Source: Candidatus Kryptoniota bacterium
GTDB taxonomy: Bacteria; Bacteroidota; Ignavibacteria; Kryptoniales; JAKASW01
Direction: 5' to 3'
DNA: 64,000 bases
Assembly: GCA_036567965.1 (NCBI GenBank)
Contig: DATCTN010000006.1
Location: 62,001-126,000, forward strand
Part shown: positions 8,726-39,995 of the stretch, piece after piece
Layout: every line of letters begins with the position of its first letter
Position numbering within the stretch: the first letter of the stretch is position 1
The notes under the pieces: model-generated
The model's database searches: none
Seen by the model: only the letters and a program-made list of their open reading frames with translations
What the model was told of the DNA's origin: nothing
Made by a program: the position numbers and the translations under genes

Positions 8726-10246
8726 ATGTTAACTTTTACCCCGACAAGTAATGAGCAGTCCTTATTGCCTAAGCGCACAGATATAAGATCCATCCTGATA
8801 ATCGGGAGCGGTCCGATCGTAATCGGGCAGGCTTGTGAATTCGATTATTCCGGAACTCAGGCATGTAAAGTCCTCCGCAAACTCGGCTACAAAGTAATCC
8901 TCGTCAACAGTAATCCCGCGACCATCATGACAGATCCGGAACTTGCCGATGTCACGTACATCGAGCCGCTCACGCCTGAATTCGTTTCCAAAATTATTGT
9001 CAGAGAAAAACCCGACGCAGTCCTTCCCACGATGGGAGGTCAGACGGCGTTGAACATCGCCGTGAGTCTTGCAGAATCAGGCCTCTTGAAGGAGTATAAT
9101 GTCGAGATGATCGGCGCTAATCTTGAAGCGATTAATAAGGCTGAAGACCGAGAGTTGTTCAAGAACACCGTTACTTCTGCCGGACTCGATGTGCCCCGGG
9201 GCGGATTTGTCAGGACAACGGAAGAAGCGATGGCAATCGTTGACCACGTGGGGTTCCCGGCGATAATCAGGCCGTCGTTCACACTGGGCGGCATGGGCGG
9301 CGGTGTAGCATACAATGTCGAGGAATACCGCGAAATTACAGAACATGGCCTATCAGTCAGCCCGATAAGCGAAATCCTGGTGGAAGAATCTGTTCTCGGT
9401 TGGAAGGAATTCGAGCTCGAAGTAATGAGAGACAAGAAGGACAATGTGGTCATTGTTTGTTCAATCGAGAATTTTGATCCGATGGGAGTCCACACCGGCG
9501 ATTCGATAACCGTCGCGCCTGCACAGACACTGACCGATCGTGAATACCAGAAGATGAGAGATTGGGCAAAGAAGATAATCCGTGCGGTGGGAGTTGAGAC
9601 CGGAGGATCGAACATACAATTTGCGGTCGATCCGCACAACGGGAGAATGGTTGTAATTGAGATGAACCCGCGGGTGTCGAGGTCCAGCGCCCTTGCATCG
9701 AAGGCAACGGGTTTCCCTATCGCGAAGATCGCGGCCATGCTCGCGGTCGGTTTCACGCTCGACGAGATTCCTAACGACATCACAAAGAAGACGCCCGCTT
9801 CTTTCGAGCCGGCAATAGATTACGTGGTCGTGAAGATTCCGCGGTGGGATTTTGAGAAGTTCAAGGGAGCCGACGATACGCTCGGTGTCCAGATGAAGTC
9901 CGTGGGCGAAGCTATGTCGATCGGAAGTACATTTAAAGAATCCCTGCAGAAAGCGCTGAGGTCATTGGAGCAGGGTCGTTTCGGACTTGGGAGTGACGGC
10001 AAAGATATTTACGATTTTTCACGGATGAAACCCGCAGCCCTGAACGAGGCCAAGCGAACGATCACAAATCGGCTCAAGAGACCCAAACCCGATAACATTT
10101 ATTATCTCAGGTACGCCATGCAGGCCGGACTTTCGGTCGAAGAAATTCATGGGCTTACCAAAATCGATCTCTGGTTCCTTAAGAATCTGAAGGAGATCAC
10201 AGATTTCGAACACGAACTCCGCGATGGATACTTCGTCGGGCCGTAA
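8726..10246 (+). CDS. carB1: Carbamoyl-phosphate synthase large chain, N-terminal half
   Basis: This encodes the carboxyphosphate-forming half of carbamoyl-phosphate synthase, which supplies carbamoyl phosphate for pyrimidines and arginine. The 506 residues cover the first biotin-carboxylase-like fold: [17 protein letters not shown] near residue 33, [10 protein letters not shown] near 98, an ATP-grasp region with [12 protein letters not shown] near 187 and [18 protein letters not shown] near 310. They also cover most of the oligomerisation domain (up to [14 protein letters not shown]). The chain stops at a TAA where the usual ~1,070-residue CarB continues. The second half starts 43 nt later in another frame. 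carA is not in the window. Confidence 0.93.
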
Positions 10247-10289
10247 GGCTTATGAGAAAAAAGAAAATGGATTTTCGCGAAATAAATAG

Positions 10290-12086
10290 ATGATGAAGAA
10301 GAAACAGCTTGACCGCGACACGCTGCTAAAAGCGAAGCAGCTCGGTTACTCCGACAGGCAGCTCGCCGACATATTTGGTAATACCGAATCGGCGATCCGC
10401 GAACTCAGGAAGAGGCTCGGAGTTGTGCCGGTTTACAAAACTGTCGATACGTGTTCCGCGGAATTCGAAGCTGAGACACCTTATCATTTTTCGACTTACC
10501 AGGAAGAAGATGAGGCGGTCCGCAGCGAAAAGAAGAAAGTGATAATTCTCGGAAGCGGACCCAACAGGATCGGCCAGGGTATCGAATTCGACTACTGTTG
10601 TGTACACGGAGTCATGGCTGCGCGTGAAGAGGGCTTCGAAGCAATTATGATCAACTGCAACCCCGAAACGGTCTCCACAGACTACGACACGGCAGACAAA
10701 CTTTATTTTGAACCGCTGACTTTTGAAGACGTTATGAACGTGATTGAAGCTGAGCAGCCTCACGGCGTAATCGTGAGCTTTGGTGGGCAGACTCCTCTGA
10801 AACTCGCGAAACCACTTGAAGAGGCGGGCGTCAGGCTGCTCGGGACGAACTCAGAGGGAATTGATATAGCCGAAGATAGAAAGCGCTTTGGCGAGCTGTT
10901 AAGGAGATTGAAAATTCCCCATCCGGAATTCGGCACGGCTTATTCCGTCAATGAAGCGGTCGATGTGGCTTCGCTTATCAGATATCCCGTGCTCGTGCGG
11001 CCGTCTTACGTACTCGGCGGACGCGCGATGGAGATTTGCTACAATGAAGAATCGCTCAGCCATTACATGCAGACCGCAGCGGACGTTTCTCCCGACAAGC
11101 CGGTCCTTATCGATAGGTTTTTGGAAGACGCTTTCGAATTCGATGTCGACGCGGTTGCCGACGGAGACGACGTGGTGATCGGCGCGATCATGGAACACAT
11201 CGAGGAAGCAGGGATTCATTCGGGTGACAGCGCAGCCGTTATTCCTCCGTATATGATTACCGAAAAGTGTCTGAAAGAGATCAAAGAATACACCGTCATG
11301 CTCGCAAAAGGTTTGAAGGTAGTCGGGCTGATGAATATCCAATTCGCGATGAAGGAAGATGTCGTTTATATTCTCGAGGTCAACCCTCGCGCCAGCAGGA
11401 CCGTTCCGTTCGTCAGTAAAAGCATGGGGCTGCCGCTGGCAAAGATCGCCGCAAAGATCATGCTCGGAAAGAAGATCAAAGAGCTCAACCTCACTGGCGT
11501 GAACAACAACTTTCACCACATCGCGATTAAAGAAGCAGTGTTCCCGTTCAACAGGTTTTCCCGCGTGAAGGTATTCCTCGGACCGGAGATGCGTTCGACA
11601 GGGGAAGTGATGGGTATCGACTCCAACTTCGGTTCCGCTTACGCGAAATCGCAGGCCGCCGCCGGCAACCCCCTGCCGAAATCCGGAGGAGTTCTTTTCA
11701 GCGTGAACAACAACGATAAGAACAAGACGACACGCGATCTCGTCAAAGACTTCATCGACCTCGGATTCAGTATCATCGCAACAGAGGGAACGTCCAGATT
11801 CCTGACGGAAAACGGAATAGAGAACGAAAAAATATTCAAGGTTAGCGAAGGCAGGCCGAACATAGTCGATTACATAAAGAACGGCAAGATTCAATTCATC
11901 GTGAACACGCCGTACGGTGAAGAAGCGAGGTATGACGAATACGCGATCGGATGGGCCGCGATAGAACACAGAGTGTCGTTTGCCACGACTCTCTCCGCAG
12001 CATCGGCAGCGGTGAAGGCAATAAGAGAACTCCAGGCCGGCGAGATGGACGTCAAACCCCTTCAGGATTTTCACTCCACTCACTAA
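10290..12086 (+). CDS. carB2: Carbamoyl-phosphate synthase large chain, C-terminal half
   Basis: Carbamate-phosphorylating half of the large chain. It begins with the tail of the oligomerisation domain (LGYSDRQLADIFG, residues 19-31). The second ATP-grasp synthetase domain follows (GSGPNRIGQGIEFDYCCVHG near 90, RPSYVLGGRAMEI near 235, EVNPRASRTVPFVSK near 365). The C-terminal MGS-like allosteric domain (about 460-598) ends with NTPYGEEARYDEYAIGWAAIEHR. An in-frame TAG immediately precedes the ATG, so the frame cannot be entered from upstream and the gene needs its own initiation. No obvious Shine-Dalgarno is present, and translation may be coupled to carB1. Together the two halves account for a complete CarB. 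Confidence 0.93.
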   Translation: MMKKKQLDRDTLLKAKQLGYSDRQLADIFGNTESAIRELRKRLGVVPVYKTVDTCSAEFEAETPYHFSTYQEEDEAVRSEKKKVIILGSGPNRIGQGIEFDYCCVHGVMAAREEGFEAIMINCNPETVSTDYDTADKLYFEPLTFEDVMNVIEAEQPHGVIVSFGGQTPLKLAKPLEEAGVRLLGTNSEGIDIAEDRKRFGELLRRLKIPHPEFGTAYSVNEAVDVASLIRYPVLVRPSYVLGGRAMEICYNEESLSHYMQTAADVSPDKPVLIDRFLEDAFEFDVDAVADGDDVVIGAIMEHIEEAGIHSGDSAAVIPPYMITEKCLKEIKEYTVMLAKGLKVVGLMNIQFAMKEDVVYILEVNPRASRTVPFVSKSMGLPLAKIAAKIMLGKKIKELNLTGVNNNFHHIAIKEAVFPFNRFSRVKVFLGPEMRSTGEVMGIDSNFGSAYAKSQAAAGNPLPKSGGVLFSVNNNDKNKTTRDLVKDFIDLGFSIIATEGTSRFLTENGIENEKIFKVSEGRPNIVDYIKNGKIQFIVNTPYGEEARYDEYAIGWAAIEHRVSFATTLSAASAAVKAIRELQAGEMDVKPLQDFHSTH

Positions 12087-32119: not shown

Positions 32120-34321
32120 CTACTTTGTCTTCATTATAAATACGCCGTCCCAGTCGGCCGAGGGCGGCTCAAGCGCGTACAACCTGCTTCTCTCGAGATA
32201 GACCCTGGATGGAACATCGGCGGGTTTGACAGAGAGGGCTTTTTCGAAATGACCCGCCGCAGCTTCCCAATCCCTTGAGCGGTATTTTTTCAAGGCGTCG
32301 TCGTACAAACCCACAAAGACCTTGACCTCTTCCGCGACCATCGCGGCGTCATCCGAGATAAGCTCGAAAATCTTCACGGGCTTCGTCTTACCCTTGACTA
32401 CGATCAGGTCGAGCTCACGGGCGAAGACCCGCCCCTTGACCAGCTCATACGTAAATTCGCTCAACATGATCCGCGTACCATACACTTTGTTGGCTGTCTC
32501 GAGGCGTGAGGCAAGGTTCACGTTGTCGCCGATGACCGTGTAATCGAATCTCTCTTTTCCCCCGACGTTTCCGACGATCATTTCGCCCGAGTTAATTCCG
32601 ATCCTGAAATTGAGGAGCGGTTTCTTTTCTTCAGTCCATTTCGTGTTGAGTTTGTCAAGTTGCCGGGTCATCTCCATTGCGGCCTGGCAAGTCCGGTACC
32701 CGTGGTCCTCGAGTTCCAGCGGCGCACCCCAGAATGCGATTATCGCGTCTCCGATATACTTGTCAAGAGTCCCGGCGTGTCTGAACACGACTTCTGTCAT
32801 AGATGTGAGGTACTCGTTCAAATGGGCCACGAGCTCTTCAGGTGCCAAGCCTTCGCTTATGGTAGTGAAGTTCGCAATATCCGAAAACAATACGCTCATC
32901 TTCTTTCGTTCACCGCCGAGTCTCACAAGTTCAGGATTATCGACAAGCTCGTTTACGACAGATGGGTCGACATACCTACTGAATAGGGACTTTATCGCGG
33001 TTTTCTGCCTCCGCTCCGAGACAAATTGATACACTACCGTCAAAACGTAACTGAACGTAAATGCCATCGCCGGGTAAACGATGTTCAGTATGAGTCTCTT
33101 ATTCGCAAAGAGAATGAATGCTGATTCGAATGATGCGAATATGACTGCAACCGTAATCAGGAACGGTACAAATATAACGAGGATCATTCTGGGATGCTGT
33201 GCCGATTTGAAAAAGAAAGATGTAAGAGAGATCAGTAGAGCGCCGATCAACATTTCGAGGAAGTCCTGCCAGGCACTCGTGGGGACGAGAAATTTTTCGT
33301 CGAGCACAGTCTCGATCGCGCTGCCGTGTATTTCGACTCCATAAGCCAGGCTGCCGGTTTTCGAGCCCCTGTCCCCCGTAAACGGAATCGGCTTCAGATC
33401 GTTCGACTCCGGATAGGCGGCACCGACGAGAACGACTTTATCCTTGAAGACGCCGGCACTTTTCAAATCATAGTAGCCGTTTATTTCGACGCCGTTGTCC
33501 TTTTCGTCCCGCGTCTCAAAAGAAGAATCATCGAGGACCTGCCAAACGTCGTACACGGGAAATTCTCCAGTCGGACCCGAATAATTAATGAGCATCGACG
33601 TTTGATCATACTTCGGTATCTCGACGCTTCCGAGCTGGAAGGATGAACTGAGATCCTTTGCAATCGCGTTGCCGAGTCCAAGGTATTGTGACAGGACCGC
33701 GAAACCGAATGAAGGGATCGTCCTGTACTCGTTGGGGCCGGTCTGGAAAGCGTTGAATGGCATGTAGCGTCTGTACACACCGTCGAGGTCGTTTCCGACA
33801 AGAACTATTCCGATCGCACTGTCGACACTCAGAAAAACATTGTGGTAATAGTCTTCACTTTTCAAAATCTTGTACCGGCCGGAAAGGTCGATATCGTTTC
33901 GTCCCGCGAGCACGACCGATTTATACTTCCGCAACGCGGAGGACAAGGCGCTGTCTTCCTTGGGTGACTCCGATGGTTCATCCATTATGATATCGATCCC
34001 GATCGCTTTCGCGCCCGCGGCATAGAGGTTTCTGATAAGCCTGGCGTAATAACTCCGAGGAAAAGGAAAACTCACCGGGAGGACTTGGTTGGATTGGTCC
34101 GTTATCCCGACGATGACGACTTTCGATTTGTCCTTAATGTTCTCTGCGCCGCGGTACTCGAACCGCTGATCGAGAGTTTTTAATTGCGCAGTTCTCAGAA
34201 AACTTACTTCTGCCGGAATATTCCTGGAAAGAAGGAAGGCAATTATCGCGGAGAGGAACCCGATAACAAGCGGCACGATGAGATTGTTCAGTCTGGAAAG
34301 TTTGCCGCGGACAGCTTGCAT
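32120..34321 (-). CDS. CHASE2-domain adenylate cyclase (class III) with helical tail
   Basis: Transmembrane receptor-type nucleotide cyclase of 733 residues. An N-terminal helix (about 14-31), an extracytoplasmic CHASE2 sensor (about 40-345), three membrane helices (about 354-372, 379-397 and 411-433) and a class III cyclase domain (about 470-655) are followed by a TPR-like tail (about 670-715). Both metal-binding aspartates are present: D481 in LFSDIANFT and D525 in KYIGDAIIAFWG. Adenine-selecting K521 and D599 (VIGDNVNLASR) and the transition-state Arg606 are also present. It is therefore predicted to be an active adenylate cyclase. It follows the outer-membrane barrel gene by 25 nt and the FecR gene is next upstream, so it probably senses envelope state together with them. 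Confidence 0.88.
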   Translation of the reverse strand: MQAVRGKLSRLNNLIVPLVIGFLSAIIAFLLSRNIPAEVSFLRTAQLKTLDQRFEYRGAENIKDKSKVVIVGITDQSNQVLPVSFPFPRSYYARLIRNLYAAGAKAIGIDIIMDEPSESPKEDSALSSALRKYKSVVLAGRNDIDLSGRYKILKSEDYYHNVFLSVDSAIGIVLVGNDLDGVYRRYMPFNAFQTGPNEYRTIPSFGFAVLSQYLGLGNAIAKDLSSSFQLGSVEIPKYDQTSMLINYSGPTGEFPVYDVWQVLDDSSFETRDEKDNGVEINGYYDLKSAGVFKDKVVLVGAAYPESNDLKPIPFTGDRGSKTGSLAYGVEIHGSAIETVLDEKFLVPTSAWQDFLEMLIGALLISLTSFFFKSAQHPRMILVIFVPFLITVAVIFASFESAFILFANKRLILNIVYPAMAFTFSYVLTVVYQFVSERRQKTAIKSLFSRYVDPSVVNELVDNPELVRLGGERKKMSVLFSDIANFTTISEGLAPEELVAHLNEYLTSMTEVVFRHAGTLDKYIGDAIIAFWGAPLELEDHGYRTCQAAMEMTRQLDKLNTKWTEEKKPLLNFRIGINSGEMIVGNVGGKERFDYTVIGDNVNLASRLETANKVYGTRIMLSEFTYELVKGRVFARELDLIVVKGKTKPVKIFELISDDAAMVAEEVKVFVGLYDDALKKYRSRDWEAAAGHFEKALSVKPADVPSRVYLERSRLYALEPPSADWDGVFIMKTK

Positions 34322-34346
34322 TTAGCTTAGGTTAAGCCATCACGAT

Positions 34347-36779
34347 CTAAAAATCCACCGCGTAAACGAGCGAGCCGACAAAATCGCTCGACCCGGACAG
34401 CGCAAAGTAGTTGAGATTGAGATTGATGGATTGCGACTTGGCAACTCGATAGCTGGCGACGAGACCGTAACCAATCCTGGAGAAGTCTCCGAACGTGGGA
34501 GTAAAATTGACCCCGACGGTAAAATTATCGTTGAGAAGTCCGTACGATGCGCCGATCGTGAGAAATGTGTAATCGAACGTTTGGATTTGCTCTACTACTG
34601 CCTGAGTGCTATCGAGCCCCTTCTGGGAATTCTTGTTCCCGTTGATGTTAAACCCGAGTGTTGTCCTCAAGGGGATATCGACGAAATCGGAGTTTACGAG
34701 GAATGCAAAATTAAAATTGTTGAGGTTGGTGCCCAGCTGAGTGCGATCGTTCGTGTTGCTGATCCCGAAATTCAGTGAGATGTTGTGCCTGATGATGTAA
34801 GTGAAGGCGTAACTCGATTCTACGTAATACCGCAGTGTAGAATTGTCAATCGCCTGGTGGAGAGTATCCTCCGTTGTAGGTATTGAATTGGAGTTGGAGT
34901 ATGTCGCGAACCCCAGTGTGAAGGTAGGCATACTGACCATCGGGAAATATGATGCAGCAAGATTCGTGTTGATGAAATTGGTCGTAGCATACTTGTTCTT
35001 TTGCAGGTTATCAAAGAGATTCTCGTAGGAGAGCGTGAGGAGAACTTGATTGCTCAACAGCCGCGGTCTCAACAGGAAATTAAAGCCGCGGATGTCAGTT
35101 CTGATATATTGCTGGCCGAAAGAAGTGTAGTCCGGTCCGCGATAGACATATCCCACTTTCGCGTAGGTGTTGAAGTAATTTAAGTTCACTCCCACGTCCC
35201 ATGACAGAGATGAGAGTTTGGTAGGATCAAGAGGAACAAGGAACTCGTTGATCGTGATGATCTTCGAGAGAGTCGACAACGGGACCACTTTGTCGATCTG
35301 GTCGCCCGCATCCGAGTGCGATATGGAATCTATGTCTGCAGCGGTTCTGTTGCCGACTGCAGTATTCTGGTTCAACATGCTTACCGCCGATTCGGCGAGG
35401 AAGTTTATATGATGGTTGTCGAAGTTCATCGAGAAGTCGGTCCCAAGCACCACATTTTGATTCGGATCGCTCCCAAGACCGATGGAGCTGATTGCGTCAG
35501 ACGACTTGAGGTATGTAAATCCCAGTTCGACGTGACTTCCGAAGTCGAATGAGGGCCTCACGGCAAACAGGTTTCGAGTGTATGTACCGTAGTTGAGGTT
35601 GACGTAAGTTGAATCGTTAAGCTTAAGATAATTCGACCCGATCAATCCTTGCGTCTGCTGCGAGACGATGACTGTGTCGAGATACTGCCCATCGATTCCA
35701 CGAATAGTTTGGCCGTAAGCGGCTTCAAGGTTGAAGAACCCCGCGGAGAGTTTCCCTGAAATTCCGCGCACTCGCATTCCGTTCATGATCAGGGGACTGA
35801 ACGTCGGGTAGCTGTCGCCAAGCTTCACGCTCAACCAGGAAGTTCCTAAGAGAAACCCGTAGCGGTCCTGCGGCTGCCTGTAAGTCTTTTCCTCGGAGGT
35901 CAAGTCCAGATTTGCGCCTAGAGTTATGCCGTACACCGTGCTGCCGAGATTCAGGTATCCACTGTTGTACCACACCGAACTCCCCGCCAAGTTCTCGTTG
36001 CGGAGCTCCAGCTGGCCGTTGCCGCGATAGGAAAAAGTCTCTGCGGCCGCCTGCTCACCGGCGGTCACAATATAGAAACTCCATTCGAGGCTTCGATATT
36101 CCGATCCGTCGGTCTTGTACAAGACTATTTTCGCTGTGTGAAGTCCGCGTGAGATCTCCCGCGGAAAACTCGCCGGAGAATACACGATAACGTCACCGCT
36201 CACGACAGCGTTTGAGGTGACGTCCAATCCATCGAAGTAGACTTCTGTCTTCCTGCGGTCCACGAAGTCAGGCGCGTATAACATTGAAGCAGCTATCATC
36301 AAATCGTCGACAGTCAGCTTCTGATCCCGTTCCGGACTTATGACTATAATGTCTTGCTGCTCGGGTGATGAATTCACGGCTATCCTCACAGGATTTTCGG
36401 TAGGATTCTCTACAGGATAGGTCTCGCTTGTTCCGTCTCGCTTGATGAGTCTGATGTAGACTTCTATGAACGGACTCACGACATAGGCACCCGGGACCGT
36501 TCCGTTCAGGCTCATCGATGATTCGTCAAGTGTTAGGTCCGCCTGCTGAAAATCCGAAGATAGGTCGTTTCGATAAAAAAGAATCCCCTGTGAGATGCTC
36601 GCAAAACTTCTCACATCCGCCTTGATCGTGACGGGTTGGTTCTCGATCACCGTGGAAGTTGCGGAAACGTTAATCACAAGCCCTTGCTGGGCGTATAGTG
36701 AGGATAGAGAGGGTATCAGGACCACCAGCAGCGCGGACGCAAATCTCCGCCCTGCCTTCCCTCCAAGTCGCTTTTTCAC
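34347..36779 (-). CDS. Predicted outer-membrane barrel protein with N-terminal Ig-like domains
   Basis: No named family recognised. The 810 residues have a signal peptide (about 1-30, ending SLYAQ). Residues about 33-245 contain two Ig/fibronectin-like beta segments (VSATSTVIENQPVTIKADV; FDGLDVTSNAVVSGDVIVYS). From about 260 to the end there are many amphipathic strands rich in Tyr, Phe and Asn, and the chain ends VYAVDF with the terminal Phe typical of barrels. It lies 39 nt behind the fecR-like gene and 25 nt before the CHASE2 cyclase, in the same transcription unit. It may be a surface sensor or porin that informs the inner-membrane cyclase; that role is inferred only from context. Confidence 0.7.
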   Translation of the reverse strand: MKKRLGGKAGRRFASALLVVLIPSLSSLYAQQGLVINVSATSTVIENQPVTIKADVRSFASISQGILFYRNDLSSDFQQADLTLDESSMSLNGTVPGAYVVSPFIEVYIRLIKRDGTSETYPVENPTENPVRIAVNSSPEQQDIIVISPERDQKLTVDDLMIAASMLYAPDFVDRRKTEVYFDGLDVTSNAVVSGDVIVYSPASFPREISRGLHTAKIVLYKTDGSEYRSLEWSFYIVTAGEQAAAETFSYRGNGQLELRNENLAGSSVWYNSGYLNLGSTVYGITLGANLDLTSEEKTYRQPQDRYGFLLGTSWLSVKLGDSYPTFSPLIMNGMRVRGISGKLSAGFFNLEAAYGQTIRGIDGQYLDTVIVSQQTQGLIGSNYLKLNDSTYVNLNYGTYTRNLFAVRPSFDFGSHVELGFTYLKSSDAISSIGLGSDPNQNVVLGTDFSMNFDNHHINFLAESAVSMLNQNTAVGNRTAADIDSISHSDAGDQIDKVVPLSTLSKIITINEFLVPLDPTKLSSLSWDVGVNLNYFNTYAKVGYVYRGPDYTSFGQQYIRTDIRGFNFLLRPRLLSNQVLLTLSYENLFDNLQKNKYATTNFINTNLAASYFPMVSMPTFTLGFATYSNSNSIPTTEDTLHQAIDNSTLRYYVESSYAFTYIIRHNISLNFGISNTNDRTQLGTNLNNFNFAFLVNSDFVDIPLRTTLGFNINGNKNSQKGLDSTQAVVEQIQTFDYTFLTIGASYGLLNDNFTVGVNFTPTFGDFSRIGYGLVASYRVAKSQSINLNLNYFALSGSSDFVGSLVYAVDF

Positions 36780-36818
36780 GTTCCCTCCGACGAAAGCGGA
36801 TATTTCCGAAACAAAAAC

Positions 36819-37508
36819 CTAGCGCTCAGTCTCTATAATTATCTCGTGTAATTTGCCGTCGCTCCCTCTGAACCACATTTCGAGCTTGTGTTGCTGCTGA
36901 TTGAACTGGTTATCGAGTTGCGTCAGCTTGTTGAGTTCATCCTGGGTCGATTGGTGGATTGACATGTCGCCGTTCTTGGAAGATTCGCCGGTCTGACCTG
37001 CACTTACATCGATCCCTTTATTGGAAATCTTATTAGCAAGATGGACAAGACCTTCGACGATCGTCAGAAAATCGGTTCCGTCAACTTGAACACTAAGTAT
37101 TCCCCCTGTGCCGCGGATCGACGCAACGCTGGTTGGCGTGGTAAACTCAAACTGACCGGTCGTTCTCTTGGTCATGGTAAAACCCACGTCGCCGCCATTG
37201 ACCGCTGTACTTTGTGGGTTCTTTTCGCCGTATACCTGCACCTCGGCGTTTGATCCGAGCCGGAGTGTGCTCGCATCGTTAAATTTTATGAGCGTGAATG
37301 ACTCTTGCTGGGTCCGCACATAATCGCCCCCGTAGATAAAATCACCCTTCTTAGCTTTCGTCCAGTCTTTGTCCTGCTTCTTTACCTCGACGCTGTTCTT
37401 GATCACCCAAAACAGCGCGATATTATTCGGAGCGGCCGCCATCTTGAAAGCGACAGACGCCGCAAACGCAAAGAGTGCAAACAACAGAACTTTTTTTCGC
37501 ATCTTCAT
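36819..37508 (-). CDS. FecR-domain periplasmic protein
   Basis: The 229 residues have a signal peptide (about 1-25) followed by a FecR domain (about 55-165). That domain carries the usual features: KKGDFIYGGDYVRT, LIKFNDASTLRLGSNAEVQV, FEFTTPTSVASIRGTGG and FLTIVEGLVHL. The C-terminal ~45 residues are Gln/Asn-rich and charged. Classical FecR proteins are membrane sigma-factor regulators. This one has no cytoplasmic or membrane part besides the signal peptide and no sigma-factor gene nearby. It lies 10 nt behind the Ig-like gene and 39 nt before the barrel gene. A scaffold or ligand-binding role in the same envelope unit is likely but unproven. Confidence 0.85.
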   Translation of the reverse strand: MKMRKKVLLFALFAFAASVAFKMAAAPNNIALFWVIKNSVEVKKQDKDWTKAKKGDFIYGGDYVRTQQESFTLIKFNDASTLRLGSNAEVQVYGEKNPQSTAVNGGDVGFTMTKRTTGQFEFTTPTSVASIRGTGGILSVQVDGTDFLTIVEGLVHLANKISNKGIDVSAGQTGESSKNGDMSIHQSTQDELNKLTQLDNQFNQQQHKLEMWFRGSDGKLHEIIIETER

Positions 37509-37518
37509 GGCTGGCTCC

Positions 37519-38586
37519 TCACTGTATGGTGACGTTTATGATTTTTGACTTGTCCAGTCCCTGCAAAATATCGATCAGGTCCTGCGTTCCGATAGACGAC
37601 CCGTCGAACGAGGCTGTACCATTTAACGAACTAATTTGTGAGAGGAGTCCCTGGTATTGCGTTCCTGTAAGAAGATTTATGAGAGCTTTTGTCGCAACGT
37701 CGTTCAAGTTGGCAGAGTTGCCGGAGGTCGTGTCGGTACCTGAGACCGTAAAACTCCAGATGTCGCTTCGAAGACCGGCTCCCCGGGTTGCTGAAGACGG
37801 GATGTCCACAAACCAGTAATAGGTTTGTCCCGTCGCGAGAAGTCTGACACCTGGTCCGGATGGCGGATAGTTGAATGAACCACCAACCACACTTTGCTGG
37901 AGGAACGGCACGCCTGATACGACGTCCTGTGGGCTCGTCTGGTTTGGAAGTTTTTGGTAGACCGACAGCACGACGGAATCCACATTTGCCGACCACTGGA
38001 AATGAGGAAACAAGGTCGTAATGTTCCCGCCGTCCATCGGAAGGACAAGATCGATTCGGCTCGGATTGGTTACGACGATTTGACCTTGAGCAGAATTGGA
38101 GACAGGGGTATTATTCACATCGACACAATTCAACATGAACGCATAAGTTCCAGCTGGCGCTTTCCCGGTCGCGAGCGCTACATTCTTTATTTTGTCAAAC
38201 TGTTCCTGGTCGTAGCTGTATGATTCCAGGTGAATGGGCGGATTGTCACCCGACAAATCGACATTTGTAATTACCTTCATTTGTCCCGGCTCCAAAGTCA
38301 GCGGTGTACTTGTAGCTTGCGCGATCTGGAAGGGCGCCTGACCTACAAGCGTGATCACAACCGAAAGCGTCAGCTTAATGTGAATCTCAGTCGGAGCGAG
38401 CGACTTCAGAGCCGCACTGAATAATACTCCTGTGCTCTGAGCATGCTGGATGTCGAGGTCCGCGACATATATCTGATTGTATTGTGGTACTGAAATCGAG
38501 AGGTTGACGAGGTTCTGCTGCGCCTGCGACGAACCGGCGAAGGACAGTATTATTAGCGCCAGGAGCGTTTTGCTGATTTGATTCAT
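37519..38586 (-). CDS. Secreted protein with Ig/FnIII-like domains, unknown function
   Basis: No known family recognised. The start at 38586 is chosen because GAGGAGG lies six bases before it; an in-frame ATG 12 codons earlier (38622) has no such site. The 355 residues have a signal peptide (about 1-23, ending GSSQA). A beta-rich first half (about 25-170) and a fibronectin/Ig-like module (about 175-285) follow; LFPHFQWSANVDSVVLSVYQ and LATGQTYYWFVDI are typical of that module. A short Asn/Ser/Leu-rich C-terminal segment ends NVTIQ. It is first of a tight four-gene set (gaps 10, 39 and 25 nt) with FecR, the barrel and the CHASE2 cyclase. Confidence 0.7.
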   Translation of the reverse strand: MNQISKTLLALIILSFAGSSQAQQNLVNLSISVPQYNQIYVADLDIQHAQSTGVLFSAALKSLAPTEIHIKLTLSVVITLVGQAPFQIAQATSTPLTLEPGQMKVITNVDLSGDNPPIHLESYSYDQEQFDKIKNVALATGKAPAGTYAFMLNCVDVNNTPVSNSAQGQIVVTNPSRIDLVLPMDGGNITTLFPHFQWSANVDSVVLSVYQKLPNQTSPQDVVSGVPFLQQSVVGGSFNYPPSGPGVRLLATGQTYYWFVDIPSSATRGAGLRSDIWSFTVSGTDTTSGNSANLNDVATKALINLLTGTQYQGLLSQISSLNGTASFDGSSIGTQDLIDILQGLDKSKIINVTIQ

Positions 38587-38690
38587 AAATCCCTCCTCTT
38601 TCACAGCTAATTTAAGCCTCATTCCGGAACTCCTACTTTGACCACTATCACCAACGACACCGGTACCAAGATAAGGACAAGCGGATCAAC

Positions 38691-39995
38691 TCAAAAATGG
38701 GCGATGTCGTTATAAATAACGAATGCCATGAAGAGCAGAAGGAGCGCGAAGCCGAACTGTTGGGCATACAGTTTAATCTTTGTCGGAACTTCTTTTCGAA
38801 AGATCGATTCATAGACAAGAAAAGCCAGATGCCCGCCATCAAGCGCGGGAATAGGAAGTATGTTCAGTACGGCAAGACTTATGCTGAGCAACGCCATGAA
38901 ACCCAGAAAACTGACAAGTCCCAATTCAGCACTTTGAGTCGCAAGTTGAGCAATCTTGATCGGTCCGCCCACAGATTTTGTAAAAGAAACTTGTCCTGTG
39001 GCGATTCTAGCAATCGATTCGATGAGAAGCTTTGTCGCGCCGACTGTCTGGTCGTAGCCGGCGGGAATGGCACTTATAACATTGTAGCTGAAAGTCTGAA
39101 CTGGTCCCGTATACTCGCCTCCGATACGTATCCCGATCAATCCATCGGAGTTAGGTGTAACGCTTATTTGCTTGGTCTCCTTTTGACGCTGCACCTGGAT
39201 AGAGACCAGTCTCCCTTTGTTCTGCTTGATCATCTCGGCAAGTTGACCGCTTGAAGTAATCGCCTGGCCGTTTATGGAGCTGACGATGTCACCCGGTTTC
39301 ATGCCGGCCTTCGACGCGGGCATCGCAAGATCGACCGCGTCGATCACCGCCCGCATGTGTGCAGGAAACAAACCGATTGGTTCTTCAGGCTTGACGGCGC
39401 CTTTCGCAACGGTCAACGCCACCGGGTTTCCGTTTCGAATGACGCGGACGGCCAGCGGAGATGCCACGTCCTCAAGATAAAATTGGGATTCAACATCTTC
39501 CCAGTTACCTACACTCTTCCCATTTATTGAAACCAGACTGTCACCCGACAGAAACCCGGACTTTCCTTCGACCGATTCGGGGTTGACATAACCAACGACA
39601 GTAGTCGAGTGAAATATTTTTCCGTTCGAGAGGTTTATCCCGTAGAAAACTGCGAAGGTCAACAGGAAGTTCATGAACACTCCGGCGCTCACGACGATCA
39701 TACGCTGGTACATCGGTTTCGATCGAAACTCGTTCGGTTGGGGCGGATTGTTCATGAAATCGGTGTCGAAACTCTCATCGACCATCCCTGCGATTTTTAC
39801 GTATCCTCCGATTGGAATCCACGATATGCAGTAGTCTGTCTCGCCTATCTTTTTCCCGAACGCACGTGGAGGGAATCCGATGGAGAATGTGTCCACCTTC
39901 ATCCCAAAGCTTTTAGCGGCAATGAAATGGCCGAATTCATGGACAAGGACTAGAATTCCAACTGTTATAATGAAGTACAGGATGTATGTCAGCAT
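38691..39995 (-). CDS. rseP: RIP-family site-2 zinc metalloprotease RseP
   Basis: Intramembrane protease that cleaves membrane-spanning regulators such as anti-sigma factors. The 434 residues begin with a first helix carrying the zinc motif HEFGH at 19-23. Two PDZ domains (about 130-215 and 220-295) follow, and the second metal-ligand motif LDGG is at 385-388 within NILPIPALDGGHL. GYVKIAGM after the first helix is also typical. It lies 22 nt downstream of dxr. dxr-rseP is a common bacterial order. It is also just upstream of the FecR/CHASE2 set on the same strand (104-nt gap). Confidence 0.95.
   Translation of the reverse strand: MLTYILYFIITVGILVLVHEFGHFIAAKSFGMKVDTFSIGFPPRAFGKKIGETDYCISWIPIGGYVKIAGMVDESFDTDFMNNPPQPNEFRSKPMYQRMIVVSAGVFMNFLLTFAVFYGINLSNGKIFHSTTVVGYVNPESVEGKSGFLSGDSLVSINGKSVGNWEDVESQFYLEDVASPLAVRVIRNGNPVALTVAKGAVKPEEPIGLFPAHMRAVIDAVDLAMPASKAGMKPGDIVSSINGQAITSSGQLAEMIKQNKGRLVSIQVQRQKETKQISVTPNSDGLIGIRIGGEYTGPVQTFSYNVISAIPAGYDQTVGATKLLIESIARIATGQVSFTKSVGGPIKIAQLATQSAELGLVSFLGFMALLSISLAVLNILPIPALDGGHLAFLVYESIFRKEVPTKIKLYAQQFGFALLLLFMAFVIYNDIAHF

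Follow-up and report, generated by a model that had tools for sequence, protein, structure and literature searches.

The ligands of CHASE2, a sensor domain common among bacteria, are unknown (PMC5192318). In S. meliloti the response to plant signals depends on the outer-membrane protein NsrA together with the CHASE2 cyclases CyaK and CyaD1/D2, and the cAMP activates the CRP-family regulator Clr (PMC7529298, PMC13001267). The first of these reports states that both NsrA and CyaK are required for the signal-1 response and assigns residues 600–1200 of NsrA to a barrel (PMC7529298). We checked the S. meliloti locus and found nsrA, which one record names as such, directly upstream of cyaK. The NsrA protein is 1190 aa long, with a FecR domain at residues 66–160, TPR at about 420–590 and a C-terminal barrel. 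In Campylobacterota a CHASE2 adenylate cyclase shares a gene cluster with a TPR protein, a phosphodiesterase and an outer-membrane protein that has a FecR domain (PMC9239204), and in Burkholderia the BiofilmReg operon places a periplasmic FecR-LysM protein beside a CHASE2 histidine kinase (PMC5192318).

The window analyzed here, a 64,000-nucleotide stretch of Candidatus Kryptoniota DNA, carries a related cluster on its minus strand at 32120–38586 (Table 1). An earlier note on this DNA had described four same-strand genes separated by 10, 39 and 25 nt, and we found these gaps to be exact for the Ig-FecR, FecR-barrel and barrel-CHASE2 junctions, respectively. The neighbours of the cluster are rseP, dxr and ruvB; rseP was present directly upstream of the Ig gene as claimed, with a gap of 104 nt. 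The FecR protein had also been noted to lack a sigma factor, and the cluster indeed holds no sigma-factor gene, nor did we find an ECF sigma factor gene inside the cluster or adjoining it. The longest open reading frame of the Ig gene starts at 38622. The ATG at 38586, which was the start used in the earlier note, is the better start because it is preceded by a strong Shine-Dalgarno sequence (GAGGAGG) and corresponds to Met13 of the longer frame, which is nearly invariant across the family alignment.

Table 1. Positions of the four clustered genes and of the adjacent rseP homologue in the window.
Feature	Coordinates	Strand	Basis
Gene 1, exported Ig/FnIII-like protein, 355 aa	37519..38586	minus	ORF
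Gene 2, exported FecR-domain protein, 229 aa	36819..37508	minus	ORF + Pfam
Gene 3, outer-membrane barrel protein, 810 aa	34347..36779	minus	ORF, family alignment, AF2 model
Gene 4, CHASE2 + class III adenylate cyclase, 733 aa	32120..34321	minus	ORF + Pfam
rseP homologue, neighbour outside four-gene unit	38691..39995	minus	Peptidase_M50 + PDZ (Pfam)

The product of gene 2 has a hydrophobic signal at residues 7–25 by hydropathy and a FecR domain at residues 62–155 (Pfam, 37.2 bits against a cut-off of 24, 4e-9), and it is the only FecR protein in its genome. Like FecI-FecR-FecA, the cluster combines a barrel with a FecR-domain protein, and we propose that here too they carry a signal across the envelope. 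However, FecI-type FecR proteins have a cytoplasmic anti-sigma N-domain and a central transmembrane helix; the cluster protein has neither, and a signal peptide takes the place of the anti-sigma domain. Neither a TonB-dependent plug nor an STN domain was found in the cluster. Since both the sigma-factor gene and the anti-sigma domain are absent we dropped a FecI-type sigma-factor reading of the locus, and we propose that the gene 2 product is a periplasmic adaptor.

The barrel protein has a signal peptide-like segment by hydropathy and gave no Pfam match above cut-off, including no plug or STN match. An AlphaFold model built from 37 sequences (pLDDT 78.2, pTM 0.55) contains two beta-rich N-domains at about 35–121 and 131–238, followed at 249–809 by about 26 long strands with no plug domain; this strand count, read from the secondary structure, could be wrong by one. 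The model thus supports the earlier description of an 810-residue barrel with N-domains, and from their strand content we infer that these domains are Ig-like. The gene 1 product likewise had no Pfam match above cut-off. Its AF2 model (pLDDT 86.7) consists of two tandem beta-sandwich domains and a small C-terminal alpha/beta, helical part. The sandwich domains match Ig/FnIII pairs in the PDB with Z up to 9.7, and the first domain alone superposes at rmsd 2.6–3.3 over about 105 residues, which supports the Ig/FnIII-like nature ascribed to it. We did not accept a sequence kinship between this protein and the barrel N-domains, as the hhalign match (prob 25.6) lay mainly in the signal-peptide region.

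The cluster has several features in common with NsrA-CyaK. In both, a FecR domain and an outer-membrane barrel are encoded directly upstream of a CHASE2 class III cyclase, and the FecR family profile matches the NsrA FecR (hhalign prob 98.1, E 1e-13). Among plasmids the window FecR matches only Rhizobiaceae records, and by coordinates the match lies about 3–4 kb from a CHASE2 cyclase in at least nine of them. In NsrA-CyaK the cAMP is read by a CRP-family regulator; the genome of the window encodes a CRP homologue, to which the search for CRP sites described below did not tie the cluster. The arrangement differs in that NsrA joins FecR, TPR and barrel in one chain, whereas here the FecR and barrel parts are separate genes of 229 and 810 aa with no Pfam TPR match between them. 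An extra Ig/FnIII gene stands in place of the TPR part. The barrel here has Ig-like N-domains, and its family gave no hhalign match to the NsrA barrel (prob 0.1) with an NsrA profile that is shallow, being made of three sequences.

The Campylobacterota cluster likewise has genes for a CHASE2 adenylate cyclase and a FecR-domain protein; however, it includes phosphodiesterase and TPR-protein genes, neither of which lies among or between the four genes of the window, and there the name outer-membrane protein is given to the FecR protein itself (PMC9239204). BiofilmReg also has adjacent FecR and CHASE2 receptor genes, 10 bp apart, but its output is a histidine kinase and response regulator, its FecR is fused to LysM, and it has no barrel, whereas here the output domain is Guanylate_cyc. 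The earlier note had called the locus an uncharacterised route. This does not stand for the kind of system, since S. meliloti provides an established case of a barrel that acts through CHASE2 cyclases. It does stand for the four-protein version, of which we found no description in this phylum in the open-access literature, the scope of our search. Thus the kind is known from NsrA-CyaK, Campylobacterota and Burkholderia, and the composition and its phylum-wide conservation are the new part.

We examined gene order in relatives, labeling families with f and the loci of sampled relatives with L. A search of 61 relatives yielded barrel homologues, and in the loci fetched FecR and barrel, and mostly CHASE2, were adjacent. 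In the class sample (L040–L059) the order Ig-FecR-barrel-CHASE2 on one strand was found in 18 of 20 genomes, from ten families. In the other two (L049 and L052) the Ig, FecR and barrel genes are kept, and these genomes encode elsewhere a CHASE2 cyclase that groups with the operon type. A scan of named contigs gave 43 loci, 37 of which were not cut inside the operon, and 35 of these 37 were complete. The complete loci include Stygiobacter electus, Melioribacter, Ignavibacterium sp., a Candidatus Kryptoniota MAG of the window's own genus and one Calditrichaeota contig. Outside the class but within the phylum, the set was complete in f24 (4/4), f35 (5/5), f50 and f55. Scattering, which the earlier note had named as the observation that would count against it, was not found in close relatives, while certain more distant families in the phylum have the genes unlinked: f27, f42 and f54 have barrel relatives with no adjoining FecR or CHASE2, both of which occur elsewhere in the same genomes. 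Because the same order recurs in dozens of genomes, the cluster is not due to chance. The dxr-rseP flank is attached in f1, f2, f4, f6, f13, f17 and f20 and is not attached in f10, f12, f19, f24 and f35. This adjacency is lineage-specific, so the unit is the four genes and we dropped RseP as a member of the system.

The FecR and barrel families also go together by presence. When both were searched in the same relatives, the FecR family was found in all 30 genomes with a strong barrel and in none of the remaining genomes; these 30 genomes are related and so do not represent 30 independent events. The FecR proteins of sister families have gained, at their C-terminus, additional copies of the first N-domain of the barrel. 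We found one copy in f17 (L051 and L055, 1e-13 and 7.5e-16) and three in tandem in f4 (L050), with domain E-values overall from 7.5e-16 to 5e-10. Of the sequence evidence for a putative physical link between FecR protein and barrel, this module common to both is the best. The L050 FecR protein, at 10233–11939, is 568 aa long, and on its contig the barrel is found as two separate ORFs.

Gene 4 matches CHASE2 (162.7 bits, 1.5e-47) and Guanylate_cyc (89.5 bits, 2.5e-25) in Pfam, and its cyclase domain matches solved bacterial adenylate cyclases best (3r5g, 2w01). By hydropathy it has one N-terminal helix and further membrane segments after CHASE2, and it ends in a TPR-like C-terminal tail. All catalytic residues of a class III cyclase had been claimed for it, and all six are present: D481 and D525 for metal, K521 and T595 for adenine, and N602 and R606 for the transition state, by the known roles of these class III residues. 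The window's own genome (4.15 Mb, 100% complete) encodes three class III cyclases, gene 4 and two others; cAMP output is thus not exclusive to the four-gene cluster. It also encodes nine cNMP-binding proteins, two of which are CRP-like with an HTH. The earlier note had proposed a search for a CRP-family regulator, and this returned a CRP homologue of 227 aa with the motif GEMALLDGEARSASV, which resembles the cAMP pocket of E. coli CRP, and a RETVSR recognition helix. The E. coli CRP consensus, from which the host's own may differ, was not enriched: the genome contained 1 palindrome against 3 control matches, and the window 23 matches against 26 expected. The regulon is therefore not identified by this consensus. 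Several stand-alone proteins of 158–206 aa with a cNMP-binding domain and no HTH are encoded on contigs C31, C8, C21 and C4; they are possible non-transcriptional cyclic-nucleotide effectors.

Gene order, co-occurrence and domain sharing strongly support a dedicated, conserved trans-envelope unit ending in a cAMP cyclase. We consider it probable, with some reserve, that the products of the four genes form a single trans-envelope receptor of the same functional type as NsrA/CyaK, running from the surface to cAMP. The barrel, predicted to lie in the outer membrane, would take a signal at the surface or via its pore, possibly by binding a ligand, and its N-terminal Ig-like domains would hang into the periplasm. 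There the FecR protein may dock on these domains, a contact that the exported Ig/FnIII protein would help or gate. The FecR protein would then relay the state of the barrel inward to CHASE2, the periplasmic domain of the cyclase, and the cyclase presumably makes cAMP that would be read by a CRP-family regulator. By analogy, this relay appears to be a cousin of the plant-host-sensing relay of root-nodule bacteria. We counted in its favor the gene order, the co-occurrence, the domain copies, the intact catalytic residues, the operon type of the detached cyclases, the nsrA-cyaK precedent and the CRP homologue. Against it we counted the barrel's lack of detectable relationship to that of NsrA, the two other cyclases, the lack of CRP-site enrichment and the lone barrels of f27, f42 and f54.

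A further reading, which we put forward only tentatively and regard as somewhat doubtful, is that the locus is a separately evolved, ancient surface-to-cAMP receptor of Ignavibacteria-Kryptonia and their neighbours. A plugless pore of about 26 strands, unrelated to TonB receptors, would be its sensor, and Ig-domain docking among barrel, FecR and Ig protein would lead to CHASE2 with neither TonB nor a sigma factor.

The operon is a fixed partner set, kept across many families, that predicts the input of CHASE2 to be a periplasmic FecR protein attached to an outer-membrane barrel. Together with NsrA-CyaK this suggests that FecR is a general adaptor from outer-membrane barrels to CHASE2 receptors, in which both the barrel and the output can be exchanged. 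The activation of CHASE2 receptors thereby becomes a directly testable question, and the locus is a first candidate surface-to-cAMP route in this little-studied bacterial group.

Conservation in the barrel is higher in the long loops (e.g. 295–305, 324–336, 548–562 and 591–599) than in the strands, which is not the pattern of a typical ligand-diversified receptor. This would fit an envelope-integrity monitor, in which FecR and CHASE2 sense the presence or assembly of the barrel through free periplasmic N-domains, not an outside ligand, and cAMP adjusts envelope functions. The one dedicated barrel in each cluster and the linkage to rseP in seven families point the same way. However, the rseP adjacency is lost in the five families named above, and the S. 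meliloti precedent responds to an added protein signal (PMC7529298). We regard such a monitor as unlikely.

The best PDB match of the barrel was the Mtr-complex protein MtrB (6r2q_B, Z 20.8, rmsd 4.9, 445 aligned residues, 11% identity); the FimD/PapC ushers came next (Z about 16). No cytochrome is encoded among the four genes and identity is 11%, thus we read the MtrB match as one of size and fold and not of function, and did not adopt a relationship to MtrB. These matches, and the position of the Ig gene as first of the operon, could also indicate that the plugless barrel is an usher- or MtrB-like secretion pore for the Ig/FnIII protein, with FecR and CHASE2 reporting on export. Barrel size alone would explain the structural matches, however, and no Ig homologue was detected beside the barrels of f27, f42 and f54, which lack FecR and CHASE2. 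The latter indicates that the Ig protein goes with the signaling genes and not with the barrel. Export is improbable in our view, and the evidence favors the Ig protein as a signaling co-factor rather than secreted cargo; its role is the weakest point of the relay mechanism. That the four genes are co-transcribed yet functionally separate, as their scattering in some families of the phylum might suggest, is very unlikely given that FecR and barrel have domains in common and that the order is kept over families, classes and Calditrichaeota while the flanks change.

Several loci show related genes in other settings. In f27 and f42 (L061 7536–11032; L067 7103–10561) the barrel relative is about 880–915 aa long and is preceded by a 111-aa TPR protein and a HIT-domain protein, not by FecR or Ig genes. 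This context suggests that the barrel family also serves another purpose. In f10 (Melioribacteraceae; L045 11813–13370 and equivalents) a TPR protein of about 386 aa and a DUF3467 protein of about 108–117 aa precede the operon, so that a TPR protein is found near the FecR/CHASE2 set as in NsrA and Campylobacterota. The window's own genome has a second CHASE2 cyclase locus on contig C26 at 272000–290000 (L139: 1141–9572), with neither FecR nor barrel. It encodes on one strand a TPR/caspase-like protein, an LPP20+DUF4384 protein, the CHASE2 cyclase and an SH3+M48 protease, and this cyclase groups in a different clade, common to the f27 and f42 genomes.
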